Assembly (NCBI GenBank): GCA_030428865.1
Contig: JAUIEK010000001.1
Coordinates: forward strand, 1-64,000
DNA: 64,000 nucleotides
From: Bacteroidia bacterium
GTDB lineage: Bacteria; Bacteroidota; Bacteroidia; Flavobacteriales; Flavobacteriaceae
Reading direction: 5' to 3'
Position 1 is the first letter of the stretch. Every line of letters starts with the position of its first letter. Positions 583 through 51,491 of this stretch are shown here, piece after piece. A program made the position numbers and the translations under genes. The notes under the pieces were generated by a model. It saw nothing but the letters and a program-made list of their open reading frames with translations, did not search any database and was not told where the DNA came from.

Positions 583-3500
583 TTAGTTGTTGTTTTTGTA
601 GTTATAGGCATGTTCGGTAACTACATTGCCTTCCTGATCTTTTACTCGAACCAACCGATTAAAATCATCATACTCGTAATAAACCGTAGCGCCTCGAGGA
701 TCCGTAATACTCGTAACACCAATTAACGGATCGTGGGTGTAACTCGTGACCATTGCACTAGGTAAGGCATCTCGTAAACTTTGTAAAGCTTCTCTAAGTT
801 CTCCTTCTTTGCCTAAATTACCGATCGTTCGATCATCATCTGCATTGGAGGCAGCAACTACTGCATTGTACAATGCCGTAGGAATCTCATTAAAAGTAAT
901 GCCTTCTAGCTTAGCTACAGGTTGGGTCTGTTCATAACCCCAGATATAAACCACACGAGTGCCATCAGCTTTGCTTAATTCTAGTGGGTTGCCTTTGTTG
1001 TCATAAGAATGGTAAATTAATCGCGGTTCTAAACTCCCTAAACCCTTGCTGGTTTGGATAGTTTCTTTTTGAAAATTACTGTCTGAGTATTCTTTATATG
1101 TACTTTTTGTTTTTTGAATAAGAGCATTGTTCTTTAAAAGTTCTTTATAAACAGGGAACTCTATAATATTTTGATCTACCATTAAATCAAAAATAGTTTT
1201 TTCTTGATTTGTGTATACTTCATCAGGTTTGTTATAAGAATAGAAAAAGTTCTCTATAAAAGAAACTGTATCACCATTCTCGTCAACAACTATTGTTTTT
1301 CTATTAAGTTTATTTTTGTCATCATAACTCATTGTCTCTTTTTGAATAGTAACTTGAGAAAGTTCATTGTTTTTGTAAAAAAACTTTTTTCTAGTAACTT
1401 CTTTAGGTAACCTAATTCCCTTAATATAATTATGTGTTAAATAAGCGACATCAGGGTTGTTCGTCATTCCATTATAGCATGTACCTACACTATTTTCTTG
1501 TGTTGACCCAATACCACACACATTAGATGGAATATCTATAAAATTATTTTTATAATTTTCAAAGGTTGTATAAAATTGATTCCATGGACAGCTAGAAAAT
1601 TGAGTCTCATATATGAAAAAAGATTGTGCAGCTACACTCGATATATCCCAGTAGTCGTAAATATTTTCTTCTAATTTTTTCAATGTATTGTCATAAACTT
1701 CATGTTTTTTTAATTTACCTCTTTTGTAATCCGTGTTTTGTTGCGTCTTGAAAGGATAATTTTTAGATAAATCAGTTTGTATTTGTATTTCTCTAGGAGA
1801 GATATATTCAAAAAATTCACTACCATTACTATATACTTGCACATATTTATATCCTACATAATTTCCTTTTACTAGAGGGGTATAGACATCAGCTATATCT
1901 CTAACAACATCATATTTGACTATTCTAGGAGATCTATTTACGCTTCCCACTCCTGAATAACAAAAAATATTGGATATGAAAGGATGAATTTTTGTCTTAG
2001 TATAGTATCTAGAATTTGAATTCAATTCCATAGAACCACTTGAAGTATGATCTTCAATTCCTACTAAGTCAATGTTTGGATTATCTTTGTATGTGTAAGA
2101 TGTTTTGCTTTTTTCCTGTCCATCGTAATCTCTATAAATAATATCCTTAATGCGGATTCCGCCTCCTTTTTTATTAATTGTATTTAGCTCGAATACAGAG
2201 TGGTTTATTGTTATACTCAAATTTATATTCGTTGGGTTTGGAGTTAGTACTACTGAAGGAGTTATTAATTCGACTATATGCCAACCAGCTGTTATCGTTG
2301 AAGTTGTGTTGTGATTTATTATCGGGAAGTTACGAATACTGCCATTTAATTTATATTGAAAATCATCAACATTATAGTTCGAATAATTAAAAGTCCCTTC
2401 AGGATTTACTATACTAGTTCCTGTTTTTGGTAATGCTTCTCGAATTCTAATAAGATGTTTATTAGGATCTGAAAAACTATTACTAGATAATATAGAGGAA
2501 TTGATTATAATTTCTTGTGAAGTGTCTGCATAAAGAAGAAACTTATTATTAGAAACTTGTGTTTGTAAATCGATATTCAAATTTCCAATACTGTTTTGAC
2601 CAATTCTATTATCTAGAATAGTTTTGGGATCTATTCTTTGACTTCCTTGATAACCATAAGAATTAGCCTCAAAGGCAAACTCTTTTCTACCACCAGTTGG
2701 ATAAGTAATAGAGCTTATAGATCCTACTACTGATTTTTCTGGTTTAAATCTTGATATTATAGAAAGAGTATTGAGTAATTCAGCTCCATTATAATATCCA
2801 AAAGCATCTTTTCTTTCATCTCCAAAACTAGGTAATTCTTCTTTATTAGTATAGCCAACATTATAAGACATAGATTGAGAATTTTCTCCAGAAAACACTT
2901 CTTTGATTCTCGTTAGAAATAGACGGTTATTAGAAGTAGTTTCATAATCGAACTCAATTCGTTTATTTTCATTTCCACTAGGGTTAAAAATCTGAATTGA
3001 ATTTAATTTAGCTCCATTATTTGATTCAAATTCAGGATGATCTTGAGATATATTATATTTTATTTTTGAACCATCTTTAAAGATTACTAGATTTGGATAT
3101 TTTTGGTTACTGGAGATATTTTGATGAGTCGAAATGAGCTTAGGCATTAAAAGTGCATTATTACCATTTTTTAATTCTGTTGTCGCTCCATAATTGTAAT
3201 CACCTTGATTTACAAGGTTATATGCTGTTGATGATTTTGGAGTACTGTACTGTTCTAAGATTGTTTGATATTCAAATTTTAAAAGTTCCTCATTATTAGG
3301 CTGAAGAATTTTTTCTAAATACCAAGCATTTGGAACATTATTTGTCCCTGAGTAGTCATGTTCAACACGAGTTGAATTTCCAGATTGAGAAGTAGATGTT
3401 TTTACAGAAATTATACTATTCTGATTTTTTTCTTTAAAAATATATTTATACCCTTTAGTATCAATAATTTCAAAACTCGTAATATCATAAGTGTCTGAAT

Positions 3501-43829: not shown

Positions 43830-43880
43830 TTATATAATTTTTTAATACTTTTCGTCATATTAACTTAAAATTTTTGTGTG

Positions 43881-44273
43881 ATGAAACAAGTATTTATTAT
43901 TATTGCCGTAGCTCTTTTTATGGGCTGTTCTCAAGAAAATTCTGATTTTTTTGAAGAACAAAATCTTATTAAAGAAGCTAACAAAGTTGAAAACAACGGC
44001 AATTTACAAACAAGAGCTGCAGATGGTCCTTCCGAATCTGATTGTTGGGAGATTTGGTGTGAAATAAAGGAACATGAAAGGCTTATAGGCATCTATAATA
44101 GCGCCATCCAAAAAATATACAATAATGCTGGAGTTGGGAACAGGGATGATTTACATCCTGTTGAAGAAGATCTAGTAATGCGATACGAACAAGATATATA
44201 TAGAGAAGAAAGACAACTACAGCTTAAAGAAAGATTATATATGGATTGCATTGAGTATGCAAATATGGAGTAA
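43881..44273 (+). CDS. Small lipoprotein, helical hairpin type (first of a pair)
   Basis: A 130-aa lipoprotein, LFMGC lipobox with Cys16. The mature part has an acidic linker, then C55-WEIW-C60, a helix, a break (NNAGVGNRDDLHPVEED) and a second charged helix ending at C123. It matches the lipoprotein at 44388 in lipobox (GCSQ), linker and Cys placement. Not recognised as a named family. GTG at 43878 precedes the ATG used here. A strong terminator follows. Confidence 0.75.
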   Translation: MKQVFIIIAVALFMGCSQENSDFFEEQNLIKEANKVENNGNLQTRAADGPSESDCWEIWCEIKEHERLIGIYNSAIQKIYNNAGVGNRDDLHPVEEDLVMRYEQDIYREERQLQLKERLYMDCIEYANME

Positions 44274-44387: not shown

Positions 44388-44735
44388 ATGAAAAACTTAC
44401 TTTTAATCATTATGCTTGCTTTTTTAGCAGGTTGTTCTCAAGACGATTCAACTCTTTTCCTAGAAACAAACCATTTAGAAAAAGAGATTGAAAAATCAAA
44501 AAAAATTAAAGCAGAATTACAAGCAAGAGACAATGATGCATGTTATGATAGGGTTATCACACAGATAACATCCGTGACAGGCCAAATAACAAGTCTTCAA
44601 AATACAATTAATAATCCTGATCCTATTCATGACAACGAAAGCACTTTGGTTAGAGATCGCGAAAGATTAAGAGAGCTTGAGGAACAATTAGAATGTCTTA
44701 TTATGTTTGATTTAGAAGCCTGCGCTGTTGAGTAA
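44388..44735 (+). CDS. Small lipoprotein, helical hairpin type (second of a pair)
   Basis: A 115-aa lipoprotein, AFLAGC lipobox with Cys16. The mature part has a Lys/Glu helix, C52, a polar helix (VITQITSVTGQITSLQ), a break with NNPDPIHDNES, and a charged helix ending in C103, plus C112. The layout matches the upstream lipoprotein. Unknown function. It stops 2 bp before the 3' end of the convergent tRNA-Ala gene. Confidence 0.75.
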   Translation: MKNLLLIIMLAFLAGCSQDDSTLFLETNHLEKEIEKSKKIKAELQARDNDACYDRVITQITSVTGQITSLQNTINNPDPIHDNESTLVRDRERLRELEEQLECLIMFDLEACAVE

Positions 44736-45726: not shown

Positions 45727-47063
45727 GTGTCAACAACAGATATTAGCTTTAAACGAATTAATTCGCTTGCAATTCCGGCTTTAATAGCAGGCATTGCAGA
45801 GCCTTTACTATCTATTACAGATACGGCAATTGTTGGTCATATAGAAACCAATTCGGCAGAAAGTTTAGCGGCTGTTGGTATTGTTGGCGCATTTATTTCT
45901 ATGCTAGTTTGGGTTTTTGGACAAATACGAAGTGCTATTTCTTCTTTGGTTTCTCAATATTTAGGAGCCAATAAATTAAACGAAATCAAATCACTTCCTG
46001 CTCAAGCTATTGCTATTGCTATTGCTGGAAGTATTGTTGTTATTCTTGTTACTTATCCGTTTGCAAAACAGATTTTTTCTTTTTACAATGCATCAGGCAT
46101 TATCTTAGACTATTCAGTTTCCTACTATCAAATTCGGATTTTTGGGTTTCCTTTTTCTTTATTTGTTTTTGCTGTTTTTGGAACATTTAGAGGATTGCAA
46201 AACACACTGTATCCAATGGTTATTGCTATTATGGGAGCTATACTAAATGTTATTTTAGATATTGTTTTAGTCTATGGAATAAAAGGTGTGTTTCCTCCTC
46301 TAAATATAGAAGGAGCAGCTTATGCAAGCGTAGTTTCTCAAATCGCAATGGCAATATTAGCAGGAATTTTAATGATCTATAAAACTCCTATTTCCCTAAA
46401 AATCAAAATGCCCTGGAATCCTGAAATAAAAAGATTATTGGGGATGGTAATTAACTTATTTATCAGAACCTTATTCTTAAATCTTGCCCTGTATTTTGCC
46501 ACTTCTTTCTCTACAGAGTATGGAAAAGAATATATTGCCGCATATACAATTGGCATTAACCTTTGGTTTTTAGGTGCTTTTGTAATTGATGGTTATTCAA
46601 GTGCAGGAGACATTTTGGCAGGAAAATTATTAGGTGCAAAAGAATATAAAACGTTAATAAAATTAGCAGTCAGCTTATAAAATATGGACTAGCAACAGGG
46701 TTTATAATAGCTGCTATTGGGTTTTTGTTTTACAATTATGTTGGTGGTTTGTTTGTAAATGACATTGACGTACAAAAAGAGTTTACCAATGTGTTTTGGA
46801 TCATATTAATTATGCAACCAATATGCGCACTTACTTTTATTTTTGATGCTATTTTTAAAGGAATGGGAGAAATGGCATTTTTAAGAAACTTACTGTTTTT
46901 TGCTACTGTTGTTGTTTTCGTTCCGTTTATATTTCTTTTCGATTTTTTAGATTATAAATTATATGGAGTTTGGTTTACATTCATGTTGTGGATTGTAGCT
47001 AGAGGCCTCCCGCTAATTATCAAATTCAGGAGAAAGTTTTTACCACTAGTTGAAAAGAAGTAA
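45727..47063 (+). pseudogene. MATE family efflux transporter, frameshifted
   Basis: A GTG-started frame of 317 codons gives the first nine or so helices of a MATE exporter (PALIAGIAEPLLSITDTAIVGH, FRGLQNTLYPMVI) and ends at TAA 46678-46680. The next frame continues the family at 46677 (IKYGLATGFIIAAIGFLFY) through 47063, giving about 445 aa together, the normal MATE length. One base appears to be missing near 46672-46677. No slippery heptamer is visible. A mutation, a sequencing error or recoding are all possible; the first two are more likely. Confidence 0.85.
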
Positions 47064-47081: not shown

Positions 47082-47849
47082 ATGAGTTCAGATACAACAC
47101 ACGGAAGTTTATACACACAAATCAACAATAAAATAGCAACGGTAGAGTTTGGTCATCCAGCCAGTAATTCTTTTCCTAGTATATTACTAGATCGATTAAC
47201 AAATGAACTCGATGAGTTATCAAATAATGATGCTGTTTCAATTATTGTTTTAAAATCAGAAGGTGATAGAGCTTTTTGTGCAGGCGCTTCTTTTAATGAA
47301 CTCACCGCTATTACTTCTTTAGAAGAAGGAAAAGCTTTTTTCTCTGGCTTTGCCAATGTGATTAATGCAATGAGAAGGTGCGGTAAACTCATAATAGGCC
47401 GTATTCAAGGTAAAGCTGTTGGTGGCGGAGTGGGTTTAGCAGCGGCTTGCGATTATGCTTTAGCAACAGAGCACGCCTCCATAAAACTATCAGAATTAAC
47501 TATTGGAATTGGTCCTTTTGTAATTGCTCCTGCTGTTGAACGAAAAATAGGATTATCAGGGTTGTCAGAGCTAACTATAGCAGCAACTGAATGGAAAAGT
47601 GCCTATTGGGCAAAAGAAAAAGGATTATTTGCAAAAGTTTTTGAAACTGTAGAAGAGTTGGATAAAGAAATTGACTTGTTAGCCAACAACCTTGCATCAT
47701 ACAACCCAGAAGCGTTACACAAAATGAAGAAAGCGCTTTGGAGAGGAACAGAAAACTGGAAGCAATTACTAACAGAAAGAGCCGAAGTTTCAGGTAAATT
47801 AGTATTATCTGATTTTACCAAAAAAGCACTACAAAAGTTTAAGAAATAA
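47082..47849 (+). CDS. Enoyl-CoA hydratase/isomerase family protein
   Basis: A 255-aa crotonase-fold enzyme. FCAGASFNEL and GKAVGGGVGLAAACDYALATE supply the oxyanion hole. The catalytic Glu of hydratases falls in the KLSELTIGIGPFV region. The exact reaction (fatty acid, phenylacetate or other CoA ester) is open. queD starts at the last base of its stop. Confidence 0.88.
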   Translation: MSSDTTHGSLYTQINNKIATVEFGHPASNSFPSILLDRLTNELDELSNNDAVSIIVLKSEGDRAFCAGASFNELTAITSLEEGKAFFSGFANVINAMRRCGKLIIGRIQGKAVGGGVGLAAACDYALATEHASIKLSELTIGIGPFVIAPAVERKIGLSGLSELTIAATEWKSAYWAKEKGLFAKVFETVEELDKEIDLLANNLASYNPEALHKMKKALWRGTENWKQLLTERAEVSGKLVLSDFTKKALQKFKK

Positions 47850-48298
47850 TGAGTACAATTAGAATTACTAAGCAGTTCAATTTTGAAACGGGTCATGCAC
47901 TTTATGGTTACGATGGTAAATGCAAAAATGTTCATGGACATAGCTACAAGTTATCTGTAACAGTAGTTGGAGAACCTATAAAAGATAATTCTCATGTAAA
48001 ATTCGGAATGGTAATTGATTTTTCGGATCTAAAAAAAATTGTGAACGAAGAAGTGGTAGATGTATTTGATCATGCCACGGTATTTAATAAAAACACGCCT
48101 CATATAGAACTTGCCAAAGAATTAGAAGCAAGAGGACATCATGTTTTATTGGTAGATTATCAGCCAACTAGTGAAATGATGGTAATTGATTTTGCAAAAA
48201 AAATAAGAACTCGGCTTCCTAAAAACATTAAGCTTTACTCAATAAAACTTCAAGAAACAGAAACATCTTTTGCAGAATGGTATGCAAGCGATAATTAA
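47849..48298 (+). CDS. queD: 6-Carboxytetrahydropterin synthase (QueD/PTPS family)
   Basis: Makes 6-carboxytetrahydropterin from dihydroneopterin triphosphate for queuosine synthesis. In the 149-aa protein H16, H29 and H31 bind zinc (FETGHAL, NVHGHSY) and C25 (GKCKN) is catalytic; FDHATVFN and LQETETSFAEWY complete the site. The start overlaps the previous stop by one base. The unrecognised gene at 48307 follows after 8 bp. Confidence 0.93.
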   Translation: MSTIRITKQFNFETGHALYGYDGKCKNVHGHSYKLSVTVVGEPIKDNSHVKFGMVIDFSDLKKIVNEEVVDVFDHATVFNKNTPHIELAKELEARGHHVLLVDYQPTSEMMVIDFAKKIRTRLPKNIKLYSIKLQETETSFAEWYASDN

Positions 48299-48306
48299 AA
48301 TAATCA

Positions 48307-49557
48307 ATGCTTAAAGCACTACTCAAAATATTTAAAAGACAAAAAACTGTGCAGTCAAAAGATGATTTAGTAAAGCTCAATAGTTTAAAAACAAAACAAA
48401 AATTACTTACAGAAAAATTAGAAGCAAAAAAAGCTAAGATTAAAGAACTACAAAACACATTAGAAAACAAAACCTATGTGCGTAGAGAAGCTTATGAATT
48501 TTTTGATTTTCTAAGTTTTACAAATCGTACAACAAAAGAAGAAGTTACTTCTCTATTAGGAGATCCTATTTTTGATCCTAAGATAGGGAGCGAAGATATT
48601 GGAATAAACTATAGTGATAAATTATTCTTTACTTTTTGTAAAGATTCTAAAAAATTGCAATCTGTTAGAATCTTTGCTTATATCGATTATCGTTTATGCA
48701 AAGAGTACCTTAATGATTTTGTTGGGTTTTATGACCATCGTGTTGATTTTATAGGGAAAAGTAAAAAAGAAATTCTTACGCTTTTTGGCACACCGTATAC
48801 TGATGATTCTTATACTTTTAAGTATCGTTACCACAATATGTATGTTACATTTGGGTTTGAAGAAGAAGAATCTGAAGAAAAATGTGTAGAGATTTTTGTT
48901 CGATATCCTTTAAAATCAGATAATTCAATACCCTATAAAGAAGCCAGAACTATTGCTGAAAATCAAAATTTAAAAAACTCCAAACGTTATTACACAAAAG
49001 AAATAACTAAACTAAATACCGAAAATCATCAATTAACTCAAGAATTAAAGGAGTGTGAAAATCAAATAAAAGAATTAGTAAATACTCTACAAATTAACAG
49101 CAATAAATATCCTCGTAGAGAAGCTTACGAGTTTTTTAATCTTTTAGGATTTACTGATGAAACAACAAAAGATGACATTATTAATTGTTTAGGCGAACCT
49201 TCTTCTTGGGCATGTACCGAAGAGGATATGTATTTTACAATGATGATTTATAGCGATGGTTTGTCTTTTATGTATTATAAAAACAACAACTTTTTAATGG
49301 CAACCGAGATTTCTTGCCAAATTAATGATGATGCTCCTAAGAGATACTTAAAAAACCTTGGCATAGATGATTCTCGAATTAATGAGTTTCTAGGAAAAAG
49401 CAAACCTGAAATATTAAAAGCGTTTGGAACACCTACCTATAGTAATTCCTACATAACTTATGTATATGATGATTTTGAAGTTGGTTTTTGGTTTGACGGA
49501 GATGATAAAAACAAAATGTCTATAAGGATAGAGTACTTCTCAAAATACGAAAGCTGA
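48307..49557 (+). CDS. Two-module coiled-coil protein with LGxP/FGTP motifs (copy A)
   Basis: A 416-aa protein not recognised as a named family. It starts with a basic amphipathic stretch (MLKALLKIFKRQK). Two modules follow. Each has a Lys/Glu coiled coil (about 17-56; 232-264), RREAYEFF (59-66; 270-277), a TTK-x4-LLGDP/CLGEP motif (83-87; 294-298) and LGKSKPEILKAFGTP-type motif (149-163; 362-376), then aromatic beta strands. The G-K/T-x-K-x-E-I-x-x-x-x-G-x-P pattern resembles the BamE/SmpA (BLIP-like) half-repeat, which is inference. No export signal is seen. It follows queD by 8 bp and precedes its own paralogue by 23 bp. Confidence 0.85.
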   Translation: MLKALLKIFKRQKTVQSKDDLVKLNSLKTKQKLLTEKLEAKKAKIKELQNTLENKTYVRREAYEFFDFLSFTNRTTKEEVTSLLGDPIFDPKIGSEDIGINYSDKLFFTFCKDSKKLQSVRIFAYIDYRLCKEYLNDFVGFYDHRVDFIGKSKKEILTLFGTPYTDDSYTFKYRYHNMYVTFGFEEEESEEKCVEIFVRYPLKSDNSIPYKEARTIAENQNLKNSKRYYTKEITKLNTENHQLTQELKECENQIKELVNTLQINSNKYPRREAYEFFNLLGFTDETTKDDIINCLGEPSSWACTEEDMYFTMMIYSDGLSFMYYKNNNFLMATEISCQINDDAPKRYLKNLGIDDSRINEFLGKSKPEILKAFGTPTYSNSYITYVYDDFEVGFWFDGDDKNKMSIRIEYFSKYES

Positions 49558-49580
49558 TTTTTTATAAAAAACTGATTTAA

Positions 49581-50774
49581 ATGGAGTCAAAAGATGATTT
49601 TGCAAAACTTAATGGCTTAAAAACAAAACAAAAACTACTTACAGAAAGATTAGAAGCAAAAAAAGCTAAAATTAAAGAGTTGCAAAATACATTAGAAAAC
49701 AAAACTTATGTTCATAGAGAAGCTTACGAGTTTTTTGACTTTCTAGGTTTTACCAATAAAACAACAAAAGAAGAAATAATTTCTTTGTTGGGAGAACCTG
49801 ATGAATATGTTTATAAACATAAAAGTGTTTATTTAGATTATAAATGTTTGTCTTTCAGATTTCTTGAAGAGTCTTCTTTTTTATTTTCTATTATGCTTCT
49901 CGCTTTCGTTATGGATTTTAAGGATGAGCTTAACAATATGGGTTTATATGACTACCGTGTTGATTTTATAGGAAAAAGTAAAAAAGAAATTTTAGAACTT
50001 TTTGGCACACCTTCTAATGATAATTCATACTCATACCAATATCTTTATCACAACGCATATGTTATTTTTGATTTTGGAGAAGGTAAATCTGGAGAAGAAT
50101 GTGATGAAATTAGTGTTCAATATCTTCAAAACAAAAATGAATCCCTTTCACATAAAAAAACTAAAACTATTGCCCAAAACCAAAATTTAAAAAACTCCGA
50201 ACATTATTACACAAAGGAAACAACTAAACTAAATACCGAAAACCTGCAATTAATTCAGAAGCTTGAGCAGTGTGAGAACCAGATAAAAGAATTAGTAAAT
50301 GCCATACAAATTAACAGTAATAAATATTCACGTAGAGAAGCCTGCGAACTTTTTGATCTTTTGGGGTTTACTGAAAAAACAACTAAAGAAGATATTATCA
50401 ATCGGATAGGTAAACCTTCTTCTTGGGCATGCACAGAAGAAGATATAAATTTCACTATGATGATTTATGGAGATGATTTGTTCTTTATGTACTACAAAAA
50501 CAATCATTTTTTAATGTCAACAGAGATTTCTTCTCATATTAATAATGATACTACTAAGAAGTATTTAAAAAGTTTAGGCATAGATGATTCGCGAATTAAT
50601 GAGTTTCTAGGAAAAAGTAAATCTGAAATACTAAAAACATTTGGAACTCCGGCCCATAACTATTCTTATATAACTTATCCATATGATGGCTTTGAGGTCT
50701 CGTTTTGGTTTGGTGGAGACAATAAAGACAAGATGTCTATAAGAGTAGAATATTTCTCAAATTATGAAGATTAA
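49581..50774 (+). CDS. Two-module coiled-coil protein with LGxP/FGTP motifs (copy B)
   Basis: A 397-aa paralogue of the gene just upstream, with the same order: coiled coil (2-42; 212-246), HREAYEFF/RREACELF (45-52; 251-258), LLGEP/RIGKP (69-73; 275-279) and GKSKKEILELFGTP-type motifs (131-144; 344-357). Its second module is far closer to the second module of copy A than to its own first module, so the whole gene was duplicated after the internal duplication. It lacks the first ~15 residues of copy A and starts at a new ATG in MESKDD. It converges on pth. Confidence 0.85.
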   Translation: MESKDDFAKLNGLKTKQKLLTERLEAKKAKIKELQNTLENKTYVHREAYEFFDFLGFTNKTTKEEIISLLGEPDEYVYKHKSVYLDYKCLSFRFLEESSFLFSIMLLAFVMDFKDELNNMGLYDYRVDFIGKSKKEILELFGTPSNDNSYSYQYLYHNAYVIFDFGEGKSGEECDEISVQYLQNKNESLSHKKTKTIAQNQNLKNSEHYYTKETTKLNTENLQLIQKLEQCENQIKELVNAIQINSNKYSRREACELFDLLGFTEKTTKEDIINRIGKPSSWACTEEDINFTMMIYGDDLFFMYYKNNHFLMSTEISSHINNDTTKKYLKSLGIDDSRINEFLGKSKSEILKTFGTPAHNYSYITYPYDGFEVSFWFGGDNKDKMSIRVEYFSNYED

Positions 50775-50876
50775 TTTAAATGGGAAAAAAGCTGCTTTTT
50801 GAATTGCTACGCCAGCTGTGCTTTTGTATTTAGCAGAGTTACGCTTAAACGTTTTCAACCAACTGCTATGTTTTGT

Positions 50877-51491
50877 TTATAAAGATCCATTAAAATTATT
50901 CATTGTATTAGCAATACCATCTGTTCCAAAAGCAACTGCTGCTTTTACAGAAAAAGGTATTCGTTCTATCAACAAGCTTTCTTCTTCTTTACTCCATTCT
51001 CCTAAAACATAATCTACCTGTCTTCCTCTTGAAAAGTTATTCCCCACACCAAATCGAAAACGCGCATATTTTTGAGAGTTCAGTTTTTCTTCAACATCTT
51101 TTAATCCGTTGTGTCCTCCTGCACTTCCTTTTGCTTTTATTCTGATAGTACCAAAATCAATATTAACATCATCTGTAATTATTAAAACGTCTTCTAATAG
51201 CACTTTTTCTTTAGTCATCCAATGTTTTACTGCTTTTCCACTTAAATTCATATATGTGCTTGGTTTTAACAGTATAAACAGTTTTCCTTTAAACCGGAAG
51301 TGTGCTATATCACCAAGCTTATCAGTTTCAAAAGTTGTTTGATGCTCGCTTGCTATAGCATCCACAATTTGAAAACCAATATTATGACGGGTATTTTTAT
51401 ACTTTTCTCCTACATTTCCCAAACCTACTAATAAGATTTTCTTCATTTGGTTTTCTTTTTTACGATTTAATAGACTTTTTAAAAAGCTCAT
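50877..51491 (-). CDS. pth: Peptidyl-tRNA hydrolase
   Basis: Releases tRNA from peptidyl-tRNA. Motifs: LVGLGNVGEKYKNTRHNIGF, STYMNLSG, DDVNIDFG and KAKGSAGGHNGLK. From 51491 the protein has 204 aa with a basic N-terminal extension (MSFLKSLLNRKKENQ). The internal ATG at 51446 gives MKKILLVG and 189 aa, the usual Pth length. I list the longer form because I recall similar extensions in flavobacteria, but the start is uncertain. A terminator lies 12 bp upstream of 51491. Confidence 0.92.
   Translation of the reverse strand: MSFLKSLLNRKKENQMKKILLVGLGNVGEKYKNTRHNIGFQIVDAIASEHQTTFETDKLGDIAHFRFKGKLFILLKPSTYMNLSGKAVKHWMTKEKVLLEDVLIITDDVNIDFGTIRIKAKGSAGGHNGLKDVEEKLNSQKYARFRFGVGNNFSRGRQVDYVLGEWSKEEESLLIERIPFSVKAAVAFGTDGIANTMNNFNGSL

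Follow-up and report, generated by a model that had tools for sequence, protein, structure and literature searches.

The known proteins of the BLIP/BamE/YjgB fold group are mainly exported and bind other proteins, and its well-known members, BLIP and BamE, are both protein binders. BLIP is secreted, and its topology comprises two tandem halves that form one sheet; BamE is a small outer-membrane lipoprotein, and YjgB of Bacillus subtilis (Pfam PF14172, DUF4309; PDB 4ygt) is exported, although the Pfam family does not formally demand an export signal. For the ABC transporter subunit TagH, the C-terminal domain is represented by 5bnd and by the integrative model 9a4o, and the folds of 4ifa and 4h0a, both CAP-associated N-terminal domains, presumably correspond to Pfam PF14504. 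DUF4309 was barely discussed in the literature searched, and no title among the literature matches listed dealt with cytosolic BLIP-like repeat proteins.

Here, we analyzed a pair of genes in a Flavobacteriaceae genome (GCA_030428865.1), located in a window of 64,000 nucleotides, which is the whole stretch of DNA analyzed and starts at position 1 of contig JAUIEK010000001.1. A sequence-only reading of this DNA had described two neighboring same-strand genes encoding proteins of 416 and 397 aa, and both ORFs were recovered with these lengths: gene A (48307..49557, +; 416 aa) and its tandem paralogue gene B (49581..50774, +; 397 aa), separated by 23 bases. The two proteins shared 67% identity in an end-to-end alignment. 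Protein A is organized in the order of coil 1 (residues 17–58; 48355..48480, +), module A1 (48481..48909, +), a linker with coil 2 (residues 227–266; 48985..49104, +) and module A2 (49114..49554, +). Module A1 carries RREAYEFF, LGDP, IGKSK..EIL and FGTP in this order. In gene B, module B1 was located at 49713..50124 (+) and module B2 at 50331..50771 (+).

Eight G-x-P half-motifs were counted, as the sequence-only reading had noted: LGDP (84), FGTP (160), LGEP (295) and FGTP (373) in A, and LGEP (70), FGTP (141), IGKP (276) and FGTP (354) in B, of which IGKP departs from the LGxP form. The proposed module of ~200 residues, present twice per protein, was retained in a refined form: one module comprises two G-x-P halves and thus corresponds to a full domain made of two halves. 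The RREAYEFF box existed in four copies (RREAYEFF twice, HREAYEFF and RREACELF), and 42 of 154 columns were invariant among the four modules. The identity between A1 and A2 was 40%, far above chance, and that between B1 and B2 was 41%. A1 and B1 shared 51% and A2 and B2 shared 74%, which were closer than the modules within each protein. This indicated that the internal duplication was older than the gene duplication. Between A and B, dN was 0.20 and dS was 0.89 (396 codons), and dN was lower than dS in all seven parts of the alignment; thus, both genes look constrained, and their coding status was supported.

The claim that these proteins belong to no described family was mostly right, but protein B exceeded the whole-protein cut-off of PF14172 (25 bits): DUF4309 was its best profile match, with an E-value of 2.1e-6 and 28.1 bits over two stretches. 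DUF4309 was not listed for protein A in the same Pfam scan. When the four modules were scanned singly (E up to 10), as the earlier reading had suggested, DUF4309 was matched by three (best E 5.4e-5) and BamE/SmpA (PF04355) by two (best E 0.0027). The best BamE match with whole proteins was 21.0 bits in A, below the cut-off of 23.2 bits, and a six-frame BamE search of the same genome found none at E 0.1. In a six-frame search with DUF4309, the best single place in this genome reached 19.6 bits, under the cut-off. NCBIfam gave no match at its cut-off for A or B, sequence searches of the PDB found no match at E 10, BLIP included, and PF14504 was matched by neither the whole proteins nor the single modules in the Pfam scan.

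The structure of a single module was predicted from the B2 sequence aligned to the remaining three modules. The best model, built on these four sequences only, was of moderate confidence (mean pLDDT 72.3, pTM 0.70); the five models spanned mean pLDDT values of 46.9–72.3, and the other four ranged from 46.9 to 60.8. The model contained two helices, four strands, three helices and three strands in this order. Its top PDB match was YjgB (4ygt; Foldseek E 8.1e-4, TM 0.49), which was also the sole Foldseek PDB match at E ≤ 0.001. By VIA, 4ygt aligned with the model over 119 of 147 residues (Z 9.3, rmsd 3.4), a score only modestly above the best Z of 7–8 often obtained with models that have no clear relatives. 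The next VIA matches were 4ifa (Z 8.2), TagH (8.0) and 4h0a (7.3), followed by scores of 6.2, 5.6 and 4.4.

The full-length model of A was made from two sequences and was of low confidence (pTM 0.35), so that the arrangement of its modules was not predicted. Residues 60–211 of this model, which hold module 1, matched 4ifa (Z 9.7), 4h0a (9.6), 4ygt (9.1) and the TagH domain (8.1, also 7.0) by VIA. The YjgB group was found at the module 1 region only, and the module 2 region placed 8wj5 first (Z 6.2). Foldseek with the full-length model found no match at E 0.001. The repeated BamE/BLIP-type fold that the sequence-only reading had proposed was thus borne out by prediction: the single-module model placed the YjgB group on top, the full-length model agreed for module 1, and the matches included YjgB/DUF4309, the CAP-associated N-terminal domains and, weakly, the putative BLIP 3d4e (Z 4.4 with the module model and 5.3 with the full-length model). 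The strongest evidence is that library-wide searches by sequence profile and by fold both ranked DUF4309 first. The prediction that each module is one complete BLIP/YjgB (DUF4309)-like domain is therefore fairly supported.

Relatives were searched for in four overlapping genome sets with a profile of module A1. No full module was found elsewhere in 166 genomes of the genus (this genome included), 299 of the family, 395 of the order and 345 of the phylum, and the four modules of this genome were the sole full modules. Protein A had no match in 146 other genomes. No relative was found in the genome contig collection (protein B and the A1 profile), in viral contigs (the A1 profile and protein A), or in plasmids and phages (protein B), where the contig, plasmid and phage collections may leave out records of this or very near genomes.

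Weak partial matches to the A1 profile (E 0.001–0.05) were detected in three other genomes of the phylum, seven of the genus and five of the order, with one genome (G586) matching in both the phylum and order sets. All 14 weak loci were inspected, and a credible half-motif was present at three of them: L015 (151 aa, exported), L099 (179 aa) and L107 (100 aa), the latter two having no signal peptide by eye. The rest were judged by eye to be chance matches, namely a membrane protein (L017), a TPR-like protein (L096), an ORF resembling a penicillin-binding protein that has GKSKKEI by chance (L097) and eight others (L016, L098, L100, L101, L102, L108, L109, and L110). The 179-aa protein (L099/L103:8225-8764) contained a BamE-like half-motif and scored 21.9 bits with BamE against the cut-off of 23.2 bits; it was surrounded by small genes, many of them unrecognised. 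The 100-aa protein (L107:1468-1770) carried the motif KSKNEILIAFGRP and was flanked by two helix-turn-helix-like ORFs.

The DUF4309 profile was also searched against relatives. Among 97 of them, 10 genomes besides this one had matches at E 0.01, all of them sub-cut-off. One of these sequences (L004, 19.3 bits) was a subtilisin-like protease by look and likely a chance match, which indicated that DUF4309 scores near 19 bits may arise by chance. The six-frame search of the 345 phylum genomes found none over the cut-off; G757, at 20.5 bits, and the present genome, at 19.6 bits, were the two that matched at E 0.001. The place in G757, the best among the 345 genomes, was a frame of 147 codons (L104:1237-1677, −) that contained two G-x-P-like halves; a signal peptide was not visible. 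Judged by its sequence, this frame appears to be a true relative of the fold with two halves, but it does not resemble A or B. Since no signal peptide was visible in this frame, L099 or L107, relatives seem to have cytosolic proteins of this kind. By these searches, the coil-linked double module has so far been found in one species and not in its relatives.

Upstream of gene A there was a gene of the 6-pyruvoyl tetrahydropterin synthase family (PTPS; 47849..48298, +), and downstream of gene B the convergent peptidyl-tRNA hydrolase gene pth (50877..51491, −). Between the PTPS stop and the ATG of A there were 8 bases, a spacing that makes co-transcription of A with PTPS likely by prediction. In a scan of the locus, nine promoter-like sites were found against a mean of 15.9 in shuffled sequences, and three terminator-like sites against 1.0, all within coding frames. 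PTPS and pth were convergent neighbors in most of the genus. Their gap was measured in 54 genomes besides this one in which both genes were placed (58 searched, including this one; in G048 the PTPS copy on the pth contig was used and the other copy dropped). It was shorter than 250 bases in 27 genomes, 250–900 bases in 16, 900–3000 bases in eight and longer than 3 kb in three. All eight loci inspected of the 16 in the 250–900 class held one ORF of 175–179 aa with a lipoprotein-like start. The eight loci in the 900–3000 class were all inspected; four held a lipoprotein-like ORF (177–180 aa) and the rest other ORFs. No lipoprotein-like ORF was found in two inspected loci of the 27 with the shortest gaps. 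In total, 12 of 18 inspected loci (L078–L095) contained a lipoprotein-like ORF of 175–180 aa, and the profile found no relative of A or B in any of them. The PTPS-pth spot (47849-51491) is an accessory locus, and its cargo differs among species of the genus.

Other features were observed further upstream in the window. A MATE-family transporter gene (45727-47063, +) extended over two frames (ORFs of 317 and 112 aa), owing either to a frameshift or to an error in sequencing. Next to each other at 43878-44273 and 44388-44735 (+), two small lipoprotein-like ORFs appeared to be distant paralogues by look, with 26% identity over 100 columns (E 1e-7 in that single comparison); the former had no Pfam match at E 1 and the latter had sub-cut-off matches only. 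A 1167-aa ORF at the start of the contig (583-4086, −) contained one RHS repeat near its C-terminus.

The coiled coils recognized in the sequence-only reading were supported for three of the four segments by a heptad permutation test, in which the score was reached in 7 of 1000 shuffles for coil 1 of A, in none of 1000 for coil 2 of A and in 6 of 1000 for coil 1 of B. Coil 2 of B failed the test (123 of 1000). The model of A contained helices at residues 2–53 and 226–263, both with a heptad pattern. For coil 2 of A, Ile, Asn240, Leu, Ile and Leu occupied the a positions, and Tyr, Leu, Leu, Cys and Leu the d positions, with Leu at three of these five. Parallel dimers typically have such an Asn at a together with Leu at d. 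The suggestion that the proteins lack a signal peptide and may be cytosolic also held: the maximal 10-residue Kyte-Doolittle mean over the first 40 starts was 1.07 in A and −0.37 in B, with no hydrophobic N-terminal core, and no lipobox was seen by eye in either protein. No transmembrane-like segment was found by hydropathy (maximal 19-residue mean of 0.33 in A and 1.46 in B), and the peak in B aligned with strand 117–123 of the A model. The cytosol is thus the simplest reading, and A and B are probably cytosolic.

The differences between A and B were concentrated in one patch. Among 396 aligned residues 129 differed, and 36 of these fell within one 50-residue window (A residues 86–141; 48562..48729, +) in the first half-sheet region of module 1. 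Such strong clustering was reached in none of 5000 permutations. At A 87–145 the two proteins agreed at 17 of 53 residues, whereas the first half of module 2, counted with its helices, had 66 of 90 identical. This pattern may reflect selection acting on a binding face. However, dS was also raised in this hot spot (1.48, the highest of the parts), and if the flanks had undergone gene conversion, the same pattern could arise with no selection on binding. Among the identical residues, a synonymous change was seen at 6 of 14 inside the hot spot versus 68 of 253 outside, a difference that was not significant (p 0.22).

Here, we propose, tentatively and at somewhat less than an even chance, that A and B are an accessory cytosolic dimeric adaptor or inhibitor that binds proteins through coils and BLIP/YjgB-like units. 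Each protein would comprise two units, a coiled-coil helix followed by one BLIP/YjgB (DUF4309)-like domain, whose two halves of helices and strands would form one sheet; the fold and the coils are supported by prediction. The coils would most likely pair as A-A, B-B or A-B, and a dimer would thereby display four domains. The sheet faces may hold one or more protein partners, as in BLIP with beta-lactamase or BamE with the BAM subunits. Since A and B have diverged in the first half-sheet of module 1, with the coils and module 2 better kept, we speculated that this half-sheet sets partner specificity and that the rest serves as a common frame. A and B matched no enzyme family in Pfam or NCBIfam, and BLIP and BamE are protein binders; by this analogy, we infer a stoichiometric, multivalent adaptor or inhibitor, carried as accessory cargo, rather than an enzyme.

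Another explanation is that A and B are orphan immunity proteins against toxins delivered by competitors, each covering different toxins, so that an adjacent toxin gene would not be required. This would fit the finding of this accessory cargo in a single species, the one patch in which the tandem paralogues diverge, and the five RHS_repeat matches in this genome (contigs C1, C2 with two, C5, and C6). A possible link to toxin, RHS or peptidoglycan genes had been raised in the sequence-only reading, but it was not supported at this locus: the immediate neighbors were PTPS and pth, no toxin gene adjoined A or B, and the nearest RHS-repeat ORF, that at the contig start, was ~44 kb away. PADLOC gave no match. 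The module model also resembled the immunity protein RhsI1 (6xtd), but the match was weak (Z 5.6, rmsd 5.8), and the fold of RhsI1 is called previously undescribed in its report (PMC10539506); this link was therefore downgraded. Simple immunity would presumably not need two modules per chain plus coils. We thus consider this explanation unlikely.

It is less probable still that the pair derives from a mobile element or phage, as its remnant or as its cargo, and is retained neutrally without host function. The GC contents of A (0.288) and B (0.287) were the lowest of 53 ORFs, which were hand-picked from 66 in the window after overlapping frames were dropped, with a median of 0.331 and a narrow distance to the next value (0.289). 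Low GC of this kind is compatible with horizontal gain as well as with fast evolution, and is proof of neither. Such an origin would also fit the lack of full-module relatives in the searched genomes, a weak PHROG match of A (phrog_3135, 3.4e-5, with no single stretch passing alone) and the best BFVD fold matches, which were phage proteins (two at E 0.001 or better). However, both frames are intact, dN was lower than dS throughout, the phage, plasmid and viral contig searches gave no relative, and Pfam detected no integrase or transposase among 12 neighboring ORFs, none of which lies to the right of pth. An internal scaffold, in which A is placed at the inner membrane through its N-terminal MLKALLKIFKRQK and organizes proteins by its coils and modules, would agree with the long coils and with the N-terminal extension of A, which contains hydrophobic and basic residues and is missing from B, but it is improbable, given the pLDDT of about 31 at the N-terminus of A and the low 19-residue hydropathy maxima.

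Within the preferred reading of a dimeric adaptor or inhibitor, a bolder form would be a new intracellular multivalent inhibitor, in which coil dimers with four BLIP-like domains act against incoming phage or competitor proteins in the cytosol. The fast-diverging sheet of module 1 would then be a replaceable specificity patch, and the tandem paralogues would widen the range. We regard this form as a long shot. The locus offers a small testable system, with two paralogues that have a common frame and differ mainly in one sheet.

Among the known systems, DUF4309/YjgB is the closest, being the best profile match of B and the best fold match of the module. However, YjgB is one domain, whereas A and B have two coil-linked domains per chain and no signal peptide. 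The CAP-associated N-terminal domains have a common fold with the module by VIA, and 4ifa is, by its entry title, an extracellular protein with an SCP domain, which is absent from A and B. BamE has in common with the A and B modules the half-motif with G-x-P; unlike BamE, A and B have two halves per domain, no lipobox and no signal peptide by hydropathy. The TagH domain matches the module in fold, but the A/B locus has no ABC transporter context. The order of secondary structure in the module fits two tandem halves forming one sheet, as in BLIP, but the putative BLIP 3d4e scored only Z 4.4 and 5.3. If the proposal is true, this cytosolic, coil-linked four-module pair would represent the re-use of that fold as a multivalent binder inside the cell.
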